Source: Rubellimicrobium rubrum
GTDB taxonomy: Bacteria; Pseudomonadota; Alphaproteobacteria; Rhodobacterales; Rhodobacteraceae
Assembly: GCF_006152115.1 (NCBI RefSeq)
Contig: NZ_VDFU01000001.1
Location: 124,001-188,000 of the forward strand
Direction of reading: 5' to 3'
Length of the DNA stretch: 64,000 nucleotides
Shown here: positions 19,754 through 28,690 of the stretch, one piece after another
Numbering within the stretch: position 1 is the first letter of the stretch
Layout of the letters: every line of letters begins with the position of its first letter
Translations under genes and position numbers: made by a program
The notes under the pieces: model-generated
Seen by the model: only the letters and a program-made list of their open reading frames with translations
Database searches by the model: none
Told to the model about the DNA's origin: nothing

Positions 19754-20353
19754 TTACATGCGCGAGGCGACATTCTCCCAGTTGACCAAGTTGTCGAGGA
19801 AGTTGGTCAGATAGGCCGGACGCTTGTTGCGGAAGTCGATGTAGTAGGAGTGCTCCCACACGTCACAGCCTAGGAGAGCGGTCTGCCCAACGCAGAGCGG
19901 GTTCACCCCGTTCTCGGTCTTGGTGATCTTGAGGCTGCCGTCCGTGTCCTTGACCAGCCACACCCAGCCCGAGCCGAACTGGCCCACACCCTGCGTGTTG
20001 AACTGCGTCTTGAAGTCCTGGACCGAGCCGAAGGCCTCGGTGATCGCGCGCTCCACCTCTCCGGGGATGCGGCTCTCGCCGGGGGTCATCATCTGCCAGA
20101 ACTCGTTGTGGTTCCACAGCTGGCTGATGTTGTTGAAGATCCCGTTCTGGGCCACGGCGCCGGGCTGGTAGGTGCCCGTGATGATCTCCTCGAGCGACTT
20201 GTTCTCCCACTCGGTCCCGGCAATCAGCTTGTTGCCGTTGTCCACATAGGCCTTGTGGTGCAGGTCGTGGTGGAACTCGAGGGTTTCGCGGGACATGCCC
20301 TTCGCTTCAAGCGCATCGTGGGGATAGGGCAGGTCGGGAAGGCTGAAGGCCAT
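19754..20353 (-). CDS. sodB: Superoxide dismutase (Fe/Mn family)
   Basis: 199 residues, full length. It begins AFSLPDLPYPHDALEAKGMS and carries the metal ligands in HHDLHHKAYVDN, WNHNEFW and DVWEHSYYIDF (His, His, Asp, His). The enzyme dismutates superoxide in the cytoplasm. The GMSRETLEFHHDLHH context and Gln-containing VGQFGSGW segment are closest to iron-type SODs of alphaproteobacteria, but metal choice is not certain from sequence. The start has AAGGAG upstream. Confidence 0.94.
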   Translation of the reverse strand: MAFSLPDLPYPHDALEAKGMSRETLEFHHDLHHKAYVDNGNKLIAGTEWENKSLEEIITGTYQPGAVAQNGIFNNISQLWNHNEFWQMMTPGESRIPGEVERAITEAFGSVQDFKTQFNTQGVGQFGSGWVWLVKDTDGSLKITKTENGVNPLCVGQTALLGCDVWEHSYYIDFRNKRPAYLTNFLDNLVNWENVASRM

Positions 20354-20484
20354 GGCGCGGCTCCTTGTTGTTCGGGCGCCGAAACGGCGCGCGACATAAC
20401 AAGGCGCACGGAGCCGTGAGGTCAAGGGCCGGGGAGCGTAGCCCGAAATACGCCAGCGCCCAAGCGGCGCCATCCAACGCAGAT

Positions 20485-20541
20485 GGCCCTCGCGGCCGCT
20501 TGCCAGCGGACGGCGAGGGCCGGCCCGGTCATCGCCGGGCC
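20485..20541. repeat. Tandem GC-rich inverted repeats upstream of sodB
   Basis: Two adjacent dyads. GGCCCTCGC (20485-20493) pairs with GCGAGGGCC (20513-20521), and GGCCCGG (20522-20528) pairs with CCGGGCC (20535-20541). They lie in the 323-base gap between soxG and sodB (20354-20676). The remainder of that gap contains no ORF that I can support; it includes an AT-richer stretch at about 20575-20625 that could hold the sodB promoter. Confidence 0.55.
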
Positions 20542-20676
20542 TGAAGGGCCGGGATCGCCGGCCGGATCAGTGCTCTGTCTGAGTAAGATATTTGTATCAA
20601 ACTTAGCAGGAATCTGCAACGGCGCAGAGTAACCGCTCGGCCAGAAATGGCCGATCCGGTCCTACTCTGGCTGGTG

Positions 20677-21195
20677 TCAAAAGTGACCCACGGCTCCGTC
20701 GGCTGCCGATTGCCGGAGCAGGGCAACAGCATAATCCGCCACGGATCGGAAGCAGATCACCCGAGCGCCTTCGCCTTCCAGCCAGAAGGCGGCAGCAAGC
20801 TGGCCGAGGCGGCTGCGCCGGAACAGGCCGGGCCCGAAGACGTCCGGATGCAAGTCGGCGGGAGACAGCTTGGCCAGCACCTCGCGGGCGTCGGGGCCTT
20901 CGATACGAACGCAGACCCGCATATCGGATACGTCGGTCACTAGGTGATGCAGCCCCGCCAGGTCCGTCGCGAGCCGATCCACTGCCAGCGCCACCTCGCT
21001 CCGTGGCACGAAGATCAGCAGCTCGTCGGGCGACATCCAGGCCACCCCCCGCTGGGAGGTTCCTTCGATGCGAAGGCGTTCGGGGAACGCCGTCCCGGTC
21101 AGGCCCACCACGGCCGCCCGCACCCGCTCATCGCCGTGGTCGCCACGTAGGCCGATCATGCCCAGCGGCTCGGCCAAGGTCACCGCGTCAGCCAT
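20677..21195 (-). CDS. soxG: Sarcosine oxidase gamma subunit
   Basis: 172 residues. It contains the SoxG-like run GVAWMSPDELLIFVPR followed by DVSDMRVCVRIEGPDAREVLAKLSP, DLHPDVFGPG, and a C-terminal FRSVADYAVALLRQSA. It is the smallest-information subunit of the heterotetrameric sarcosine oxidase and resembles the aminomethyltransferase fold. Its ATG overlaps the 3' end of soxA by 8 bases. It is the last gene of soxB-x-soxD-soxA-soxG. Confidence 0.88.
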   Translation of the reverse strand: MADAVTLAEPLGMIGLRGDHGDERVRAAVVGLTGTAFPERLRIEGTSQRGVAWMSPDELLIFVPRSEVALAVDRLATDLAGLHHLVTDVSDMRVCVRIEGPDAREVLAKLSPADLHPDVFGPGLFRRSRLGQLAAAFWLEGEGARVICFRSVADYAVALLRQSAADGAVGHF

Positions 21196-24166
21196 TCAGC
21201 TTGTCTCCCGCCTTGTCGTAAAGGACCGGGTCGACGATCCGGGCCTCGATGGGCTGGCCGCCCTTGTTCGACACCTGCACCACCTGCCCCATGCGCTCGG
21301 GGCCGTTCTCGATCAAAGCCATGGCGATGCCGCGATCCAGGGTGGCCGAGAAGTAGGTCGAGGTGACCCGGCCCTCGGCGTTGCGCTGGCCGTTCGCGTT
21401 CTCCCCATGCCCGAGGACATAGGCCCCCTCGGGCAACACGGATCGGTTGAGAGGCTCAAGGCCAACTAGCTTCCAGCGATGCCCGCCGGCCATGTGGGAC
21501 CGCTCCTGCGCGCGCTTGCCCAGGAAATCAGGCTTCTTCTTGGAAACGGCCCAGCCAAGGTTCAGGTCCTGCGGAATGACGGTGCCGTCCGTCTCCTCGC
21601 CGATCATGATGTAACCCTTTTCGGCCCGCAGCACGTGCATGGCCTCAGTGCCATAGGGCGTGATGCCCCATTCGGTCCCGGCCTGCATCAGCGCCTCCCA
21701 GAGCGCGAGGCCCTGGTTGGCCGGCACTGCGACCTCGAAGGACAACTCGCCCGAAAAACTGATGCGGTGCACGCGCGCGTCGAACCCGCCGAGCTTGCCT
21801 TCGGCGAAGGCCATGAAGGGCAGCGCCTCCCTGGACAGGTCCATTCCGCCCAGCTTGGATAGCACGTCCCGCGCGCGCGGCCCGGCAACGGCGATCTGCG
21901 CCCACTGCTCGGTCAGGTTGGCGACATAGACCTTCCAATCGTGCCATTCCGTCTGGAGCCAGTCCTCCATATGGGCGTGGATGCGATCCGCGCCCCCGGT
22001 GGTCGTGTGGCAAAGCCAGCTATCCTCAGACAGCCGGATGACCACGCCGTCGTCGGACAGGAACCCGTTCTCGGTACACATCAGGCCGTAGCGGCACTTG
22101 CCCACGGGAAGGCTGCTCATGACGTTGGTGTACATCATGTCAAGGAAGCGGCCTGCGTCCGGTCCCTTCACAACGATCTTGCCAAGGGTCGAGGCGTCGA
22201 GGAGCCCCACCCCGTTCCTTACAGCCAGCACCTCGCGATTCATCGCGGCGTGGACATGCTCGCCGGGACGGATGTAAGCGAAGGGACGCCGCCACAGACC
22301 CACCGGTTCCCAAGTCGCGCCGTGGCGCTGATGCCATTCATGGATGGCAGTCCGGCGGACAGGCTGGAACAGGTGCTCCTTGGCGACGCCCCCGATCGTA
22401 CCCAGCGTCAGCGGCGTGTAAGGCGGACGGAACGTCGTCGTCCCCACCTGCGGGATCGGCACATGCAGGGCGTTCGACAGCACCGCGAGCCCATTAATGT
22501 TCGACAGCTTGCCCTGATCGGTCGCCATGCCAAGTGTCGTGTAGCGCTTGGCGTGCTCAACTGACTGGAAGCCCTCGCGGGCGGCCAGTTCCACGTCCGA
22601 CACCTTCACGTCGTTCTGGAAGTCGAGCCACATCTTGCGCTTGAGCGCCGTCTTGGCGCCTTGAGGCATGATCCAGACGGGCAGGAACGGCCCCTCCTCC
22701 GCGTCGTGCGCGAGGATCTCCGGTGCGTCGGCACCCACCGCCGCCGCCCCGGCCCGAGCGCCAGAGCCGATCACGGCAGCCGTCCTCAGTTCGCCCACGA
22801 CCGATCCGGCCGGCAGGACGATGGGGGATCCGTTATGGTTGCGGGGCGGCCGCTTGGGATCGGGGAGGAACATCGCCCGGTCGTCGTCCCAGGACAGTCC
22901 GCCGCCGCAATGCGACCACAGGTGGACGGATGGCGTCCAACCACCGGACATGGCAACGGCGTCGCAGAAGATCTCCTCGATCGGGGAGCCTTCACCGGAC
23001 AGGGCGCAAAGCTTCACGCCGGATACCCTGCGGCGTCCGGTGACCTTGGCGATCCCTCGCCCGGCCTCGATCCGGATGCCCAGATCACGCGCCTGCCGTA
23101 CCAACTCGCCGTCCGGACGCGGCCGGGCGTCCACGATGGCAGGCACGATCAGCCCGGCGCGGTGGATCGCCAGCGCCGTGCGATAGGCGTCGTCGTTGTT
23201 GGTCACGACCACGACACGGTCGCCGATGCTGACGCCCCAGTTCACAAGATAGTCCCGCATGGCCGAGGCCAGCATGACGCCGGGCACGTCATTGCCGGCG
23301 AAGGCGAGCGGCCGTTCGATAGCCCCATTCGCCGCGATGACCTTGCCGGCCCGGATGCGCCACAGCCGCTGACGCGGCCCCGCCCCTTCCAACTGCTCGG
23401 CGGCCAGGACGTAGCCGTGGTCGAATACGCCGCTCACCTGCGCGTTCAGCCGCAGGCGGACGTTGGGCATGGACCGCAACGCACGGACTGTCCGGTCAAC
23501 CCAGTGAGAGGCGGGCGTGCCGTCGATCTCGGGCTCATCGATGACGGCCCGGCCGCCCCAGCAGGGGCTCTGCTCCATCAGCAGCACACGCTGACCTGAC
23601 TGCGCGGCAGCCCATGCCGCAGAAAGGCCGGCCACGCCGCCGCCCGCGATCAGCACGTCCACATGGACGTTGAAATGCTCGTAGGTGTCGGGGTCGCGCC
23701 CCTGCGGCACCCGCCCCAAGCCCGCCGACTTGCGGATGACCGGTTCGTAGACATGTTTCCAGAAGGCGCGCGGCCACATGAAGGTCTTGTAGTAGAAGCC
23801 GGCCGGGAGGAACCGGCCCAGCGCGTCGTTCAGCACGCCCACGTCGATGTCGAGGCTCGGGAAGCGGTTCTGGCTCAGCGCCGTCATTCCGTCCTTGAGC
23901 GGCGTCACCGTCGCCCGATGGTTGGGCTCCACTCGATCACCGGCCCCGAGGTTCACGAGGCCATTCGGCTCCTCGTGGCCCGAGGCGACGAAGCCACGCG
24001 GGCGGTGGTACTTGAAGCTGCGCCCCACCAGCATCTGGCCGTTGGCCAGCAGCGCCGAAGCCAGCGTGTCGCCCTCGTACCCCTGGTACGGGTGTCCGTC
24101 GAAGGAAAAGCGGAGCGGGCGCGAACGGTCGATCAGCCGTCCGCCGCGATGCAGACGCGTGCTCAT
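21188..24166 (-). CDS. soxA: Sarcosine oxidase alpha subunit
   Basis: 992 residues. The N-terminal ferredoxin-like domain (about 10-110) is followed by an NAD-binding Rossmann fold with GGGVAGLSAAWAAAQSGQ from about 175, and a C-terminal GcvT-like folate-binding domain (about 600-990). SoxA with SoxB, SoxD and SoxG oxidises sarcosine to glycine, H2O2 and a one-carbon unit transferred to tetrahydrofolate as 5,10-methylene-THF. The start overlaps the soxD stop by 4 bases. Confidence 0.96.
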   Translation of the reverse strand: MSTRLHRGGRLIDRSRPLRFSFDGHPYQGYEGDTLASALLANGQMLVGRSFKYHRPRGFVASGHEEPNGLVNLGAGDRVEPNHRATVTPLKDGMTALSQNRFPSLDIDVGVLNDALGRFLPAGFYYKTFMWPRAFWKHVYEPVIRKSAGLGRVPQGRDPDTYEHFNVHVDVLIAGGGVAGLSAAWAAAQSGQRVLLMEQSPCWGGRAVIDEPEIDGTPASHWVDRTVRALRSMPNVRLRLNAQVSGVFDHGYVLAAEQLEGAGPRQRLWRIRAGKVIAANGAIERPLAFAGNDVPGVMLASAMRDYLVNWGVSIGDRVVVVTNNDDAYRTALAIHRAGLIVPAIVDARPRPDGELVRQARDLGIRIEAGRGIAKVTGRRRVSGVKLCALSGEGSPIEEIFCDAVAMSGGWTPSVHLWSHCGGGLSWDDDRAMFLPDPKRPPRNHNGSPIVLPAGSVVGELRTAAVIGSGARAGAAAVGADAPEILAHDAEEGPFLPVWIMPQGAKTALKRKMWLDFQNDVKVSDVELAAREGFQSVEHAKRYTTLGMATDQGKLSNINGLAVLSNALHVPIPQVGTTTFRPPYTPLTLGTIGGVAKEHLFQPVRRTAIHEWHQRHGATWEPVGLWRRPFAYIRPGEHVHAAMNREVLAVRNGVGLLDASTLGKIVVKGPDAGRFLDMMYTNVMSSLPVGKCRYGLMCTENGFLSDDGVVIRLSEDSWLCHTTTGGADRIHAHMEDWLQTEWHDWKVYVANLTEQWAQIAVAGPRARDVLSKLGGMDLSREALPFMAFAEGKLGGFDARVHRISFSGELSFEVAVPANQGLALWEALMQAGTEWGITPYGTEAMHVLRAEKGYIMIGEETDGTVIPQDLNLGWAVSKKKPDFLGKRAQERSHMAGGHRWKLVGLEPLNRSVLPEGAYVLGHGENANGQRNAEGRVTSTYFSATLDRGIAMALIENGPERMGQVVQVSNKGGQPIEARIVDPVLYDKAGDKLNG

Positions 24167-24516
24167 TCCACAGCCTCCGGTTCGCCCGGAACGCCGGGCT
24201 CGAATCCCCAGCCGGGTCGCTCCACGCCGGCACGACGGCGGATCTCGTCCGTGGGGGTGGCCAGACTGGCCGGATAGGTTCCGAAGACCTGCATCGTGAC
24301 GGTGTCACGGGCAGCCAGGAACCACTTGCCGCAGCCAAAGGCATGGCGCCAGCGCTCGAGGTGCGGGCCCTTGGGGTTCTGCCGGTGGAACAGATAACCT
24401 TCGAACTCCTCCTCCGAGGAGCCTGGGCCGTGACGCTTCAGATGCGCCTCGCCGCCGGGCAAAAGCTCGGTCTCGTCGGCTTGGACCCCACAATGGGGAC
24501 AGGTGAGGGTCAGCAC
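24163..24516 (-). CDS. soxD: Sarcosine oxidase delta subunit
   Basis: 117 residues. CPHCG at residues 6-10 plus a downstream RHAFGCGKWF provide the Cys/Cys/His/Cys zinc site of SoxD, and ARDTVTMQVFGTYP is the family C-terminal motif. The start is GTG with GAGGAGG upstream. A hairpin with a T-rich tail lies between this gene and the preceding Ala-rich gene, so soxD-soxA-soxG may be partly uncoupled from soxB. Confidence 0.92.
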   Translation of the reverse strand: MLTLTCPHCGVQADETELLPGGEAHLKRHGPGSSEEEFEGYLFHRQNPKGPHLERWRHAFGCGKWFLAARDTVTMQVFGTYPASLATPTDEIRRRAGVERPGWGFEPGVPGEPEAVE

Positions 24517-24540
24517 GTTGCCTCCTCGGGATGTGCGGAA

Positions 24541-24575
24541 ACAAGGAAAGGCCGCGTCCCTTGCGGGAGGCGGCC
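24541..24575 (-). terminator. Terminator-like hairpin inside the sox operon
   Basis: On the minus strand GGCCGCC-TCCC pairs with GGGA-CGCGGCC (GGCCGC at 24550-24555, GCGGCC at 24570-24575 on plus; one central mismatch), followed by TTTCCTTGTTT. It lies after the Ala-rich gene and 25 bases before soxD, where it could reduce read-through. Confidence 0.6.
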
Positions 24576-24648
24576 CGACTGCCCCCGAAGGGACAGCATG
24601 ACGACGGGGCGGCGCGGCGCGCCACCCCGAGAGAAAGTCAGCCCGGCC

Positions 24649-25275
24649 TTACTGGTCGGCGGGGTCGGCGGTGCCGGTCGGCGGCGCGGACTCGCCTTCG
24701 GTCGGAGAGGCTTCTGTCGGCGCGGTCTCGGTGACTCCGCCGGTGTCGCTGGTCTCGTCCGAGCCTGTCGCGGCGTCGGCGGCAGTGTCGGCGGCAGCAT
24801 CGGCGGCATCGGTGGCGCCAGCCGCAGCATCGCCAGCTGTATCGGCCGCACCCGTGGCGGCATCGCCCACTGCGTCGGCGGCACCGGTCGCGGCGTCGCC
24901 AGCAGCATCGGCCGCACCCGTGGCAGCGTCGCCCACCGCGTCGGCGGCACCGGTCGCGGCGTCGCCAGCAGCATCGGCTGCGCCTGTCGCAGCAGCTCCT
25001 GCAGCAGCCCCTGTGGTTGCGGCAGCACCGGTCGCAGCATCGGTGGCCGCTTCGCCAGCGGTGTCGGTCGCGCCTTCAGCTGCCGTGCCTTCGACAGTTT
25101 CCTCAGTGGCGGTGACGCCTGTCGCGTCCTCGCCGGTTGTTGCGACCGTGTTGTCGCCGGCCGACATGAACCACCACAGCAGCAGCAGAACCACGACGAT
25201 CGCGCCGATGATGAAGGCGATCGTGCTGCCCGAGCTGCGCGGCGGCGGCGTTGGAGTGTAGTGCGGATCGGACAT
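24649..25275 (-). CDS. Single-helix membrane protein with 11-residue Ala-rich repeats
   Basis: 208 residues. The cytoplasmic start MSDPHYTPTPPPRSSGS is followed by one helix (about 18-36) and then a very Ala/Thr/Asp/Gly-rich region. Within it are five consecutive 11-residue units of the form AADAxGDAATG (about residues 110-165). The spacing resembles 11-mer repeats of group 3 LEA proteins, but the units are acidic and lack Lys. A Thr/Glu/Pro-rich tail ends the protein. It is not a known sarcosine oxidase subunit, yet it sits between soxB and soxD on the same strand, 82 bases after soxB. I do not recognise a function; a periplasmic or surface spacer is one possibility. Confidence 0.65.
   Translation of the reverse strand: MSDPHYTPTPPPRSSGSTIAFIIGAIVVVLLLLWWFMSAGDNTVATTGEDATGVTATEETVEGTAAEGATDTAGEAATDAATGAAATTGAAAGAAATGAADAAGDAATGAADAVGDAATGAADAAGDAATGAADAVGDAATGAADTAGDAAAGATDAADAAADTAADAATGSDETSDTGGVTETAPTEASPTEGESAPPTGTADPADQ
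24845..24976 (-). repeat. Two tandem 66-bp repeats in the Ala-rich gene
   Basis: Copies at 24845-24910 and 24911-24976 differ at only a few positions. Each 66-bp copy is itself two diverged 33-bp units, matching the 11-residue protein repeat. The frame is kept, so copy number can change without breaking the gene. Confidence 0.85.
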
Positions 25276-25357
25276 GGACGTTGCTCCGTGGATGCGTCTT
25301 GCGACGCCCCAACGAGACCTCCTCGCGGCCGGTTCCCGAAGTCGTGAAGATTATCGG

Positions 25358-26605
25358 TCAATGCGCGACCCCGGCCGCAACGCTTTCGTCGATGAACCGC
25401 CCCTCGCGGAAGCGTTCGAGCCCGAACGATGCTGCCAACGGACCCGGCTCCCCCTTGGCCACCAACTCGGCCATGGCCCAGCCCGATCCGGGGATGGCCT
25501 TGAACCCGCCGGTGCCCCAGCCGCAGTTGATGAAGCAGTTGTCCAGCGGCGTCCGGCTGATGATGGGGGACCGGTCACCCGTCATGTCCACGATGCCGCC
25601 CCACTGCCGCAGCATCTTGAGCCGCGAGATGATGGGAAAGGTTTCGATCAATGCGCGGACCGTTTCCTCGATGTGGTGGAAGGACCCGCGCTGCGTATAG
25701 GCGTTGTAGCCGTCCGTGCCGCCGCCGATCACCATCTCGCCCTTGTCGGACTGGCTCATGTAGCCGTGGACGGTGTTGGCCATGACGACGACGTCCATGC
25801 AGGGCTTGATCGGCTCGGACACCAGGGCCTGCAGGGGCATCGATTCGATGGGCATTCGGAAGCCCCCCATCTCGGCCAGCACCGAGGAATGCCCGGCGAC
25901 GACGATGGCCAGTTTGTCGCAGCCGATCGCGCCCTTGCTGGTCTCCACACCAGACACCTTGCCGTTCGCGGTCAGGACGCCCTTCACCTCGCACTGCTCG
26001 ATGATGTCCATGCCCATGTCGGCGCAGGCGCGGGCATAGCCCCAGGCCACGGCGTCGTGCCGCGCCGTGCCGCCCCTGGCCTGCCACAAGGCGCCCAGCA
26101 CCGGATAGCGCGGCCCCTCGATGTGGATGATGGGACACAATTCCTTGACGCGGGCGGGCGAGATGAACTCCGTCTCCACGCCCTGCAACGCGTTGGCCTC
26201 GGCGGTTCGCTTGTAGCCGCGGACCTCGTGCTGGGTCTGGGCCAGCATCATGACGCCGCGCGGCGAGAACATGACGTTGTAGTTCAGCTCCTGGCTCAGC
26301 GTCTCGTAAAGGCTGCGCGACTTCTCGTAGATCGCGGCCGAGGGATCCTGGAGGTAGTTCGACCGGATGATCGTCGTATTCCGCCCGGTGTTGCCGCCGC
26401 CCAGCCAGCCCTTTTCGATGACCGCGACGTTGCGAATGCCGAAGTTCTTGCCGAGGTAATAGGCCGTGGCGAGCCCGTGCCCGCCGGCCCCTACCACCAC
26501 GACGTCGTATCGCGACTTGGGCGCGGGCGAGGTCCAGGCGCGATCCCAGCCGGAATGGTGCCGAAGCCCTTCACGTGCGAGGGCGAAGACGGAATAGCGA
26601 CGCAT
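25358..26605 (-). CDS. soxB: Sarcosine oxidase beta subunit
   Basis: 415 residues, normal SoxB length. The FAD dinucleotide-binding motif VVGAGGHGLATAYYL is at about 35-50, then WLGGGNTGRNTTIIRSNYL. ARHDAVAWGYAR holds the His expected to bind FMN covalently in heterotetrameric sarcosine oxidases. This subunit performs the oxidation of sarcosine. It is the first gene of the sox group and diverges from ccmI with a 171-base gap containing both promoters. Confidence 0.95.
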   Translation of the reverse strand: MRRYSVFALAREGLRHHSGWDRAWTSPAPKSRYDVVVVGAGGHGLATAYYLGKNFGIRNVAVIEKGWLGGGNTGRNTTIIRSNYLQDPSAAIYEKSRSLYETLSQELNYNVMFSPRGVMMLAQTQHEVRGYKRTAEANALQGVETEFISPARVKELCPIIHIEGPRYPVLGALWQARGGTARHDAVAWGYARACADMGMDIIEQCEVKGVLTANGKVSGVETSKGAIGCDKLAIVVAGHSSVLAEMGGFRMPIESMPLQALVSEPIKPCMDVVVMANTVHGYMSQSDKGEMVIGGGTDGYNAYTQRGSFHHIEETVRALIETFPIISRLKMLRQWGGIVDMTGDRSPIISRTPLDNCFINCGWGTGGFKAIPGSGWAMAELVAKGEPGPLAASFGLERFREGRFIDESVAAGVAH

Positions 26606-26776
26606 CGAAGACTCACCCCCTTGGCGCCCGGGCGGGCCACGGGCTTCTCCTACTAAACCGGGCGAGCCGGGGGAAGCGGCGGCGCTGCGGCACAAAGCCT
26701 CGCGAATGCGACCTTCCGCGTCGGTCGCGCGCCCTCTAGAACGGCGCAACGCCATGGGGGCGCGGGAGACCGGGAA

Positions 26777-27994
26777 GTGCTGTTCTGGATCATCGCCGGG
26801 ATGCTGTCCGTGGCTGTCGCAGCCCTTCTTGCGCGACCCCTGCTGGCTCCTGCGGCCCCCGGCGCCGAGACGTCGCCGGAGCAGGCCATCTACCGCGACC
26901 AGTTGGCCGAGGTGGATCGCGACCTCGCCCGCGGCGTCATTCGCCCCGAGGAAGCCGAGCGCGCCCGCACCGAGATCGCTCGCCGGCTCCTGGCGGCGGA
27001 CCGGGCAGGCCCCGCGCGTTTGCGCGAGGCGCCACGCAGCGCAGCGCTGGCCGCCGTCGTGGCGATCGGGCTGTTCGCCGTGATGGGAAGCCTTCTCGTC
27101 TACAGCGTGCTGGGTCAGCCCGGTGCCTCCGACCTGCCTCGGGCCGCTCGGGTGGCCGAAGCGACCAGAGCCCTCGAGACCCGGCCGTCCCAGGCCGAGG
27201 CCGAAGCGCGCTTCGCGGAACTGGCTCCCGCTGCCGTGCCCCAGGTCCCGGCCGAGGAGCTGGCCCTTATCGAGGAGCTTCGCCGCGTGGTCCCGACCCG
27301 GCCCGACGAGCCCGAAGGCTGGGCGCTGCTCGCCCGGAACGAGGCACGGATCGGCAACTTCGCGGCCGCAGCCCAGGCCCAGCAGAACCTGGTGCACCTT
27401 CGGGGCGACTCGGCCACAGCCGAGGACGTGGCGACGCTGGTCGATTACCTCGTCGAAGCGACAGGCGGGATCTTCGTCTCGCCCGAAGCGGAAGCCGCCC
27501 TGGACCGCCTCGCTGCGATCGACCCTCAAAGCATGGTGCTCCGCTACTATGCGGGGCTGCTTTACGCGAGCACGGGGCGGCCGGACCTCGCCTTCCCATT
27601 ATGGCGGGCCGTGGTCGAGAACGGGCCGCCCGACGACTTCCGCCGCTTCCGCGCCGAAGCACAGATCGAACAGATGGCCTGGCTCGCGGGGGTGGACTAC
27701 ACCCTGCCCGCTCCCTCCGGCCCATCATCCGACGATATGGCCGCGGCTGCGGACATGGACCCCGAGGCGCAGCAGCAGATGATCCAAGGCATGGTCCAGG
27801 GGCTCCGCGAACGCCTGACGGCCGAAGGCGGCCCGGTCGAAGAATGGGTGCGGCTCGTCACCTCGCTCGCGGTCCTGGGCGACGAGGCCGGTGCGCGCGA
27901 CGCGCTGACGGAAGCCCGCCTGGCCTTTGAGGGTGACTCGGCCGCTTTGGTGGCGCTGGACGCGGCCGCAGGCCAGGCGGGGCTGGCCCCATGA
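26777..27994 (+). CDS. ccmI: Cytochrome c biogenesis protein CcmI
   Basis: 405 residues. Helix 1 is at the N-terminus ([22 protein letters not shown]), then [29 protein letters not shown], the CcmI signature leading to helix 2 (about 95-112), and a TPR-rich periplasmic domain that chaperones apocytochrome c to the CcmFH ligation complex. It starts with GTG after CGGGA. It is separate from the ccmABCDG block, as is usual in this group. Confidence 0.88.
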
Positions 27995-28470
27995 TCCTTC
28001 CCGATGCGGAAGGGTTCCTGGCCGCACTCCCCCGACACGGCGCCATCGCAGGGCTCGACTTGGGCACAGTGACCATAGGCGTCGCCGTGTCGGACCTGCG
28101 CCGCCGCGTGGCAACCCCGACCGAGACGGTCCGGCGCAAGAAGTTCACCCTGGATGCCGCCCGGCTTCTGGAGATCGCAGCCGCGCGCGATCTCAGGGGA
28201 CTTGTCCTGGGCCTGCCGATGAACATGGACGGCAGCGAAGGGCCGCGCGCCCAGAGCACCCGTGCCTTTGCTCGTAACCTGGAGCGGCTGACCGACCTGC
28301 CCATCACCTTCTGGGACGAACGGCTGAGCACGGTCGCAGCCGAACGGGCGCTGATCGAGGCGGATACGTCCCGAAAACGTCGTGCCGAGATCATCGACCA
28401 TGTGGCGGCAGGGTTCATCCTGCAGGGGATGCTCGACCGGTTGGCCTATCTGGAGAATCGCGATGGATGA
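27991..28470 (+). CDS. ruvX: YqgF/RuvX-type pre-16S rRNA nuclease
   Basis: 159 residues with an RNase H-like fold. [15 protein letters not shown] at about 20-35, GLPMNMDG near 75, and [15 protein letters not shown] near 110 supply the conserved acidic residues of YqgF. The protein matures 16S rRNA 5' ends; an older suggestion is Holliday-junction resolution. The ATG overlaps the ccmI stop by 4 bases. Confidence 0.92.
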
Positions 28471-28690
28471 TGTCTGGGCCCGCGCGGAGCCGCAGAGCCC
28501 CTGCAAGAAGGTCTGCGTGATCCATCCGGACTCGGGGCTCTGCGTTGGCTGCCTGCGCACCCGGAGCGAGATCGCGGCCTGGCCCAGCCTGTCACCCGAA
28601 GGCCGCGACGCCGTCTTGACCGAACTTCCTGCCCGCGAGGGGCTGCTCGTGCGGCGACGCGGCGGGCGCGCGGCACGGGTCGGCGGCTAG
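28463..28690 (+). CDS. DUF1289 small cysteine-rich protein
   Basis: 75 residues. [22 protein letters not shown] carries the C-x3-C...C-x2-C arrangement of DUF1289, followed by the family's [14 protein letters not shown]. It is a likely small metal-binding protein of unknown function. It overlaps the ruvX 3' end by 8 bases and ends in a basic tail ([13 protein letters not shown]). Confidence 0.85.

Follow-up and report, generated by a model that had tools for sequence, protein, structure and literature searches.

Between the sarcosine oxidase genes soxB and soxD, Rubellimicrobium rubrum encodes a small protein, predicted to cross the membrane once, whose gene appears to be an independent resident of the neighbouring ccmI locus, outside sarcosine oxidase. 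It appears to belong to a membrane-protein family that has no name, although it recurs across a bacterial group that has been studied well. The reading we favour, which we hold to be evenly balanced between right and wrong, is that of a protein in the inner membrane, encoded at the ccmI locus, that combines a packing helix with an outward-facing acidic spacer tail, recently lengthened here.

The gene and its genomic slot

The window is the whole 64,000-nucleotide stretch of DNA that was analysed. The locus within it is composed of the following features.

24649–25275, minus strand: the slot gene, encoding a 208-residue, predicted single-pass membrane protein with an acidic low-complexity tail (open reading frame call; genus orthologues in the same place)
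25358–26605, minus strand: soxB (TIGR01373 above cut-off)
24163–24516, minus strand: soxD (PF04267 above cut-off; TIGR01374 below its cut-off)
21188–24166, minus strand: soxA (TIGR01372 above cut-off)
20677–21195, minus strand: soxG (PF04268 above cut-off; TIGR01375 below its cut-off)
26777–27994, plus strand: ccmI, divergent from soxB and the conserved neighbour (TIGR03142 above cut-off; synteny)
24547–24629, minus strand: three conserved hairpins between the slot gene and soxD, the last terminator-like (seven genus sequences)

The slot gene is exactly where the earlier note had placed it, on the minus strand with an ATG start; it lies 82 bp downstream of soxB and 132 bp upstream of soxD, all on the same strand. 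Several reading frames are open in this stretch. The start of soxB was set at the first methionine within its homologous region. Beyond soxG, on the same strand, is an iron/manganese superoxide dismutase gene (window positions 19754–20473); because sarcosine oxidase yields hydrogen peroxide as its product, this pairing with sox may be meaningful.

The earlier note held that soxB and soxD are normally adjacent and that this gene had been inserted into their operon, and neither view survives comparison across the Rhodobacteraceae. Using 116 ccmI neighbourhoods taken from 187 genomes with a ccmI match (short contigs are among those omitted), we measured gaps in the 104 that had both soxB and soxD: the median gap is 492 bp, and only 23 of the 104 are shorter than 150 bp. 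The family profile finds a match in 37 of these ccmI-linked gaps (E ≤ 0.01) and none in the other 67, so the gene is dispensable, or goes undetected, in many relatives. A second set, found through soxD, has a match in 30 of 77 gaps (80 soxD loci minus three without a usable upstream soxB); it partly overlaps the 104 and is the source of the profile. Scoring instead for a transmembrane segment followed by an acidic tail containing no more than a single lysine or arginine, a profile-free test, gave 45/104 gaps in the sense direction versus 1/104 antisense. Within the genus, the gene lies between soxB and soxD in six of seven other genomes; the remaining one, G007, is an 88% complete genome in which no soxB match exceeds 51% identity, and its ccmI locus falls outside the comparison. 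Absence from close relatives together with atypical composition, taken earlier as the mark of a chance insertion, is not what we see: the gene is present there, with a GC content of 0.72 against 0.67 for the window.

The gap has other occupants too. At L107, L113, L118, L122, L123, L126, L128 and L130 it encodes a different small protein, hydrophobic and bearing the motif RRLWDNQ. One locus (L076) comes from a record titled Oceanobacillus, yet its SoxB and SoxD are ~76% and ~69% identical to those of the window; this looks like a wrong title or a contaminated assembly.

Occurrence of the gene tracks ccmI. It is found in 4 of 9 ccmI neighbourhoods without sox genes and in 38 of 107 with sox genes or remnants (E < 0.05; the 107 include G208, on the strength of what is left of its soxD, and also G215 and G048, whose neighbourhoods are truncated where the contig stops), and is thus about equally frequent with and without sox. 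The sox region of G208 (L170:4178–5318) has decayed beside an intact-looking ccmI: all that is left of soxB is two terminal pieces, one of which contains stops, and soxD and soxA are fragmentary too, while the slot gene in their midst is intact. Paralogous sox operons, 17 from the genus and 10 from the ten genomes lacking an intact sox set at the locus, yielded nothing to the family profile (27/27). From these three results, the gene appears to follow the ccmI locus and not sarcosine oxidase, and the earlier link to sarcosine or osmolyte use loses its footing. Counting against a strict separation from sarcosine metabolism, a distant soxB lies elsewhere in 8 of the 10 genomes without intact local sox, including all five that keep the slot gene (best soxB match, 56–60% identity). 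Among 30 loci returned by a genome search with a profile built from slot proteins, whose tie to the slot is partly by construction, 25 (the window itself included, and one present as remnants) have soxB or soxD within 1.5 kb; of the remaining five, three adjoin ccmI, one adjoins pyrF and one lies elsewhere.

A transcription break between the slot gene and soxDAG is plausible. In the seven genus sequences, 10 of the 27 base pairs in these hairpins have changed on both sides with pairing kept. We call the hairpins terminator-like only, because the covariation energy term is slightly unfavourable (+0.56) and a simple terminator scan flagged nothing in this interval. The region 20000–28600 yielded no sigma-70-like promoter.

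Predicted membrane helix and acidic tail

The protein is differentiated into an anchor, a repeat-bearing tail and a C-terminal segment.

25159–25227, minus strand: predicted transmembrane helix, residues 17–39, with Gly16, Ala20 and Gly24 four apart (AlphaFold, hydropathy, alignment)
24769–25062, minus strand: predicted long tail helix, residues 72–169 (98 residues), with one acidic face and containing the repeats (AlphaFold, helix-face test)
24817–24981, minus strand: five consecutive 11-residue units of 33 bp each, residues 99–153, with a recent 66-bp duplication (Tandem Repeats Finder, unit comparison)
24652–24768, minus strand: C-terminal segment, residues 170–208, much of it conserved in the genus (alignment)

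The description of a single-helix protein in the earlier note passes over the predicted transmembrane segment at the N-terminus, where the conservation lies: in a 16-sequence alignment Gly24 is invariant, and Ala20, Val28 and Gly40 are almost so. AlphaFold predicts this transmembrane helix, a disordered linker, a continuous helix over residues 72–169 and a disordered end (mean pLDDT 75, pTM 0.35), with ten-residue pLDDT means of 81–96 along the long helix, its first block (68) excepted. By the positive-inside rule, the flank rich in lysine and arginine stays on the cytoplasmic side; the tail should face outward, because it has neither residue while the N-terminus before the helix has a single arginine (residue 13). 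AlphaFold may overstate the tail helix, by analogy with BilRI, a bacterial LEA protein reported to be predicted helical by other programs and disordered by NMR (PMC8096337).

The tail contains 33 aspartate and glutamate residues in 169 and no lysine or arginine, in keeping with the earlier account of acidic, lysine-free units. An 11-residue helical period is likewise borne out: lag-11 autocorrelation stands 7.1 s.d. over 500 shuffles (11 being the best of lags 2–19), and, taken at the 11-residue angle, the acidic residues of the long helix gather on a single face (z = 6.6, reached by 0 of 1,000 shuffles). Seven other tails have the one-face acidic pattern (z 2.5 to 6.1), chosen among high lag-11 scorers and so not an unbiased sample. 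Five 11-mers do stand in a row as the note described, four of them fitting AADAxGDAATG; the fifth departs from the pattern, reading AADTAGDAAAG.

Tandem Repeats Finder reports a 66-bp period (3.1 copies, score 204) and a 33-bp period (5.1 copies, score 175). Units 1 and 3 are 1 nt apart and units 2 and 4 are 3 nt apart, every change synonymous, and the two main unit types are 8 nt apart (seven synonymous changes, one nonsynonymous). The R. roseum orthologue has three units, in an order matching the window protein. Near-identity of alternate units and a mostly synonymous difference between types fit an older 11-mer kept by protein-level constraint and then duplicated recently as 66 bp, which bears out the recent expansion proposed earlier. 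The pN/pS ratio is 0.36 in the membrane segment and 0.52 in the C-terminus, with soxD at 0.27 for comparison. Elsewhere in the same genome there is a second Ala-rich 11-mer-like stretch (L002, G000:C7:56225–56545), a linker joining two similar segments of a larger protein.

Family searches gave no name for the protein. It has no Pfam or NCBIfam match at E ≤ 1, and 20 relatives have none above cut-off; overall, known families (Pfam, NCBIfam and PHROGs for the window protein; Pfam and NCBIfam for relatives) returned nothing or weak matches below cut-off. Against PDB sequences, the protein has no match at E ≤ 1 and the family profile has no convincing relative, its best (E = 0.01) being a designed repeat protein. 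A literature search of titles and passages found no title on this family, which does not prove absence. What defines the family is a core seen by alignment in slot proteins of many genera, with an S/G-rich lead, an [AL]FI[VI]G[AG]xVV-type helix and small residues after it. The window protein matches this core profile at E = 9.0e-19, partly by construction as it is row 1; orthologues and gap open reading frames were gathered independently, and frames resembling other families were removed by hand when slot proteins were collected. After the helix, a D-[VI]-x-[VI]-x-[VI]-like stretch is clear in two relatives from the genus, L056 and L175, and degraded to DATGVTATE in the window protein.

The tail is where the members vary. 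Within the genus the protein ranges from 145 to 220 residues, while the membrane helix is retained, as is the greater part of the C-terminal segment. With tails below 40 residues and duplicates excluded, 36 distinct tails remain, of which 29 have no lysine or arginine and 35 have at most one; of the 18 lags compared, lag 11 scores highest in 13 of these tails and exceeds z = 3 in 12, and these period counts are not independent, the genomes being related. Besides Rubellimicrobium, the tails scoring high at lag 11 belong to records titled Silicimonas, Loktanella, Pararhodobacter and Pseudosulfitobacter; the rest include Pro-rich tails and tails built on a different repeat (period 5 in L058). Sequence and length differ from tail to tail while the acidic, lysine- and arginine-poor make-up persists; composition and charge are therefore kept more strictly than sequence. 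Searching whole genomes, the profile finds a match in 47 of 198 from the family Rhodobacteraceae at E ≤ 0.001. A class-wide search matched 20 of 289 genomes at the same threshold, three of them in this bacterial family; outside it there are eight at E ≤ 3e-7, mostly short forms of ~50–110 residues with the same helix (forms were assigned for all of the eight but L307), and weaker class-wide matches may be due to chance.

In the arrangement we favour, the N-terminus, with its only arginine at residue 13, would be cytoplasmic and residues 17–39 would span the inner membrane, so exposing to the periplasm an acidic, lysine- and arginine-free tail of ~170 residues. The membrane helix, with its small residues four apart, probably packs on itself or on a partner in the membrane. 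The R. rubrum tail would contain a long Ala-rich helix of 11-residue units bearing one acidic stripe, grown by the recent 66-bp duplication. As relatives at the same place have shorter, Pro-rich or otherwise repeated tails, the tail is most likely a length-tolerant acidic spacer or brush, with the membrane helix carrying the specific function. The setting would be the envelope or the respiratory membrane, and a respiratory accessory role is possible.

Respiratory context and competing explanations

In R. sphaeroides, RSP_2686 is soxB (PMC9275681) and the gene after it, RSP_2687, is fbcQ, encoding cytochrome bc1 subunit IV (PMC10041115); in a ChIP study RSP_2687-90 is entered as fbcQ-soxDA, with PrrA as its activator (PMC4263372). 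The slot open reading frame of G058 matches PDB subunit IV along all 124 residues. Although subunit IV is described as unique to R. sphaeroides (PMC10041115), it may have relatives in other genera: a minimal fbcQ-like family occupies 14 of the 104 gaps (for example, L181:1737–2111), 9 of the 14 being only 48–67 residues long, and many of its members end in a V-[VI]-Y-P-like stretch. The R. sphaeroides ccmI–soxB region is reported to be bound by CenR, an essential envelope regulator, with the soxB transcript up in a D56E strain (log2 3.76; PMC9275681). CenR binding is odd for a sarcosine oxidase gene. The corresponding part of the window is the divergent ccmI–soxB region 26606–26776. No exact match to the CenR pattern TGA-N8-TGA lies between ccmI and soxB in the window, a weak negative because the reported R. 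sphaeroides soxB site itself departs from that pattern (PMC9275681). We take the slot, fbcQ and CenR facts as context, not proof.

This context invites a reading of the protein as an accessory subunit of a respiratory complex, like R. sphaeroides bc1 subunit IV or mitochondrial QCR9, its helix packing on core subunits and its acidic tail reaching the cytochrome c side. Occupancy of the slot by fbcQ in one species and by the fbcQ-like family in 14/104 gaps is in its favour, as are the neighbouring ccmI, a cytochrome c biogenesis gene, and the report that the subunit IV helix lies packed against those of the Rieske protein and cytochrome c1, with threefold higher activity when the complex includes subunit IV (PMC10041115). 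Homology to subunit IV, the idea with the greatest appeal, was nevertheless rejected, as hhalign against the fbcQ-like family gives a probability of 1.2% and co-occurrence is at chance level: the two families lie together in 5/104 gaps where independence expects 37 × 14 / 104 = 5.0, and are therefore not versions of one gene. Subunit IV is also absent from the PDB matches of the family profile (the window protein itself having none), and shared position alone is weak, so that we consider a respiratory subunit unlikely. In a wider version, the whole ccmI–soxB–slot gene–soxDAG locus of Rhodobacteraceae gathers small subunits of the respiratory membrane, each specific to a lineage. R. sphaeroides would contribute subunit IV, other genera its minimal relatives, and this acidic-tailed family, undescribed so far, would be a second accessory subunit. 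A negative periplasmic helix would then capture or guide basic cytochrome c near its membrane partners. We regard this combination, locus and helix role together, as distinctly unlikely.

Sarcosine oxidase itself could be the partner, with the protein acting as a membrane anchor or uptake helper kept between soxB and soxD for joint action, a reading encouraged by the 25 of 30 loci with soxB or soxD within 1.5 kb and by the shared strand in the window. We think it very unlikely, given a gene that sits beside ccmI in 4/9 neighbourhoods without sox, persists among sox fragments, goes undetected in 27/27 paralogous operons and 67/104 ccmI-linked ones, and is set off from soxD by terminator-like hairpins in the genus. 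The earlier note likened the protein to LEA stress or desiccation protectants, tied to use of methylated-amine osmolytes. The 11-residue period and amphipathic predicted helix do recall group 3 LEA motifs (PMC8670023), but only the helical period of that likeness holds: LEA_4 (PF02987) membership was rejected on a whole-genome profile search without a match at E ≤ 10 (nor was there one for the protein in the Pfam scan at E ≤ 1), the tail has no lysine, and the predicted membrane segment speaks against a soluble LEA-type protein. Since 23 of 36 tails have a best period other than 11, and the same 4/9, G208 and 0/27 results detach the gene from sox, we give such a protectant hardly any chance. 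A functionless low-complexity frame, held open by biased composition and repeat slippage, would account for the highly variable tail (145 to 220 residues in one genus) and the several open frames. It too has very little probability in our view, set against a transmembrane core conserved in many genera, the 45/104 sense versus 1/104 antisense result, pN/pS below 1, a synonymous bias between repeat units and C-terminal conservation in the genus.

The inner-membrane protein of the ccmI locus that we prefer matters in several ways. Loci without sox constitute a natural experiment separating the family from sarcosine metabolism. Several families of small membrane proteins share the position of the bc1 subunit IV gene, which makes a respiratory role of the others directly testable, and many natural acidic 11-residue helices on one anchor form a useful series for work on periplasmic tail function.

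Comparison with known systems

Group 3 LEA motifs combine an 11-residue period with an amphipathic helix (PMC8670023), and LEA_4 repeats have regular Lys, Asp/Glu and Ala (PMC8096337). The window protein is alike in its 11-residue, Ala-rich repeat and in the acidic residues on one helix face; it differs in having no lysine, a predicted membrane anchor and no LEA_4 match.

Minimal relatives of ~50 residues in other alphaproteobacteria (L309, L310 and L311) match the same profile and share the membrane helix, followed by a short alternating acidic and hydrophobic stretch, with almost no tail and different neighbours. L310 had hinted that purB might be a common neighbour, but the other loci searched did not bear this out. 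The family also has paralogues: one on the pyrF side in G058 (R. sphaeroides coordinates; L321, E = 5.9e-08) and two unnamed proteins, L168 and L171, all matching the same profile with one helix and a tail free of lysine and arginine. Unlike the window protein, they lie at other loci and have Pro-rich tails with no 11-mer. The G058 paralogue (L321:10330–10941), by pyrF near 3.18 Mb, is a handy laboratory target.

The closest comparison by position is with the fbcQ product of R. sphaeroides, whose gene shares the soxB–soxD slot. Subunit IV is a single-helix membrane protein with its N-terminus inside and its C-terminus outside (PMC10041115), and the window protein is predicted to be alike. Their proportions differ: in subunit IV the helix is preceded by ~78 residues and followed by a short outer tail, whereas in the window protein the predicted helix starts after 16 residues and a long tail follows it.
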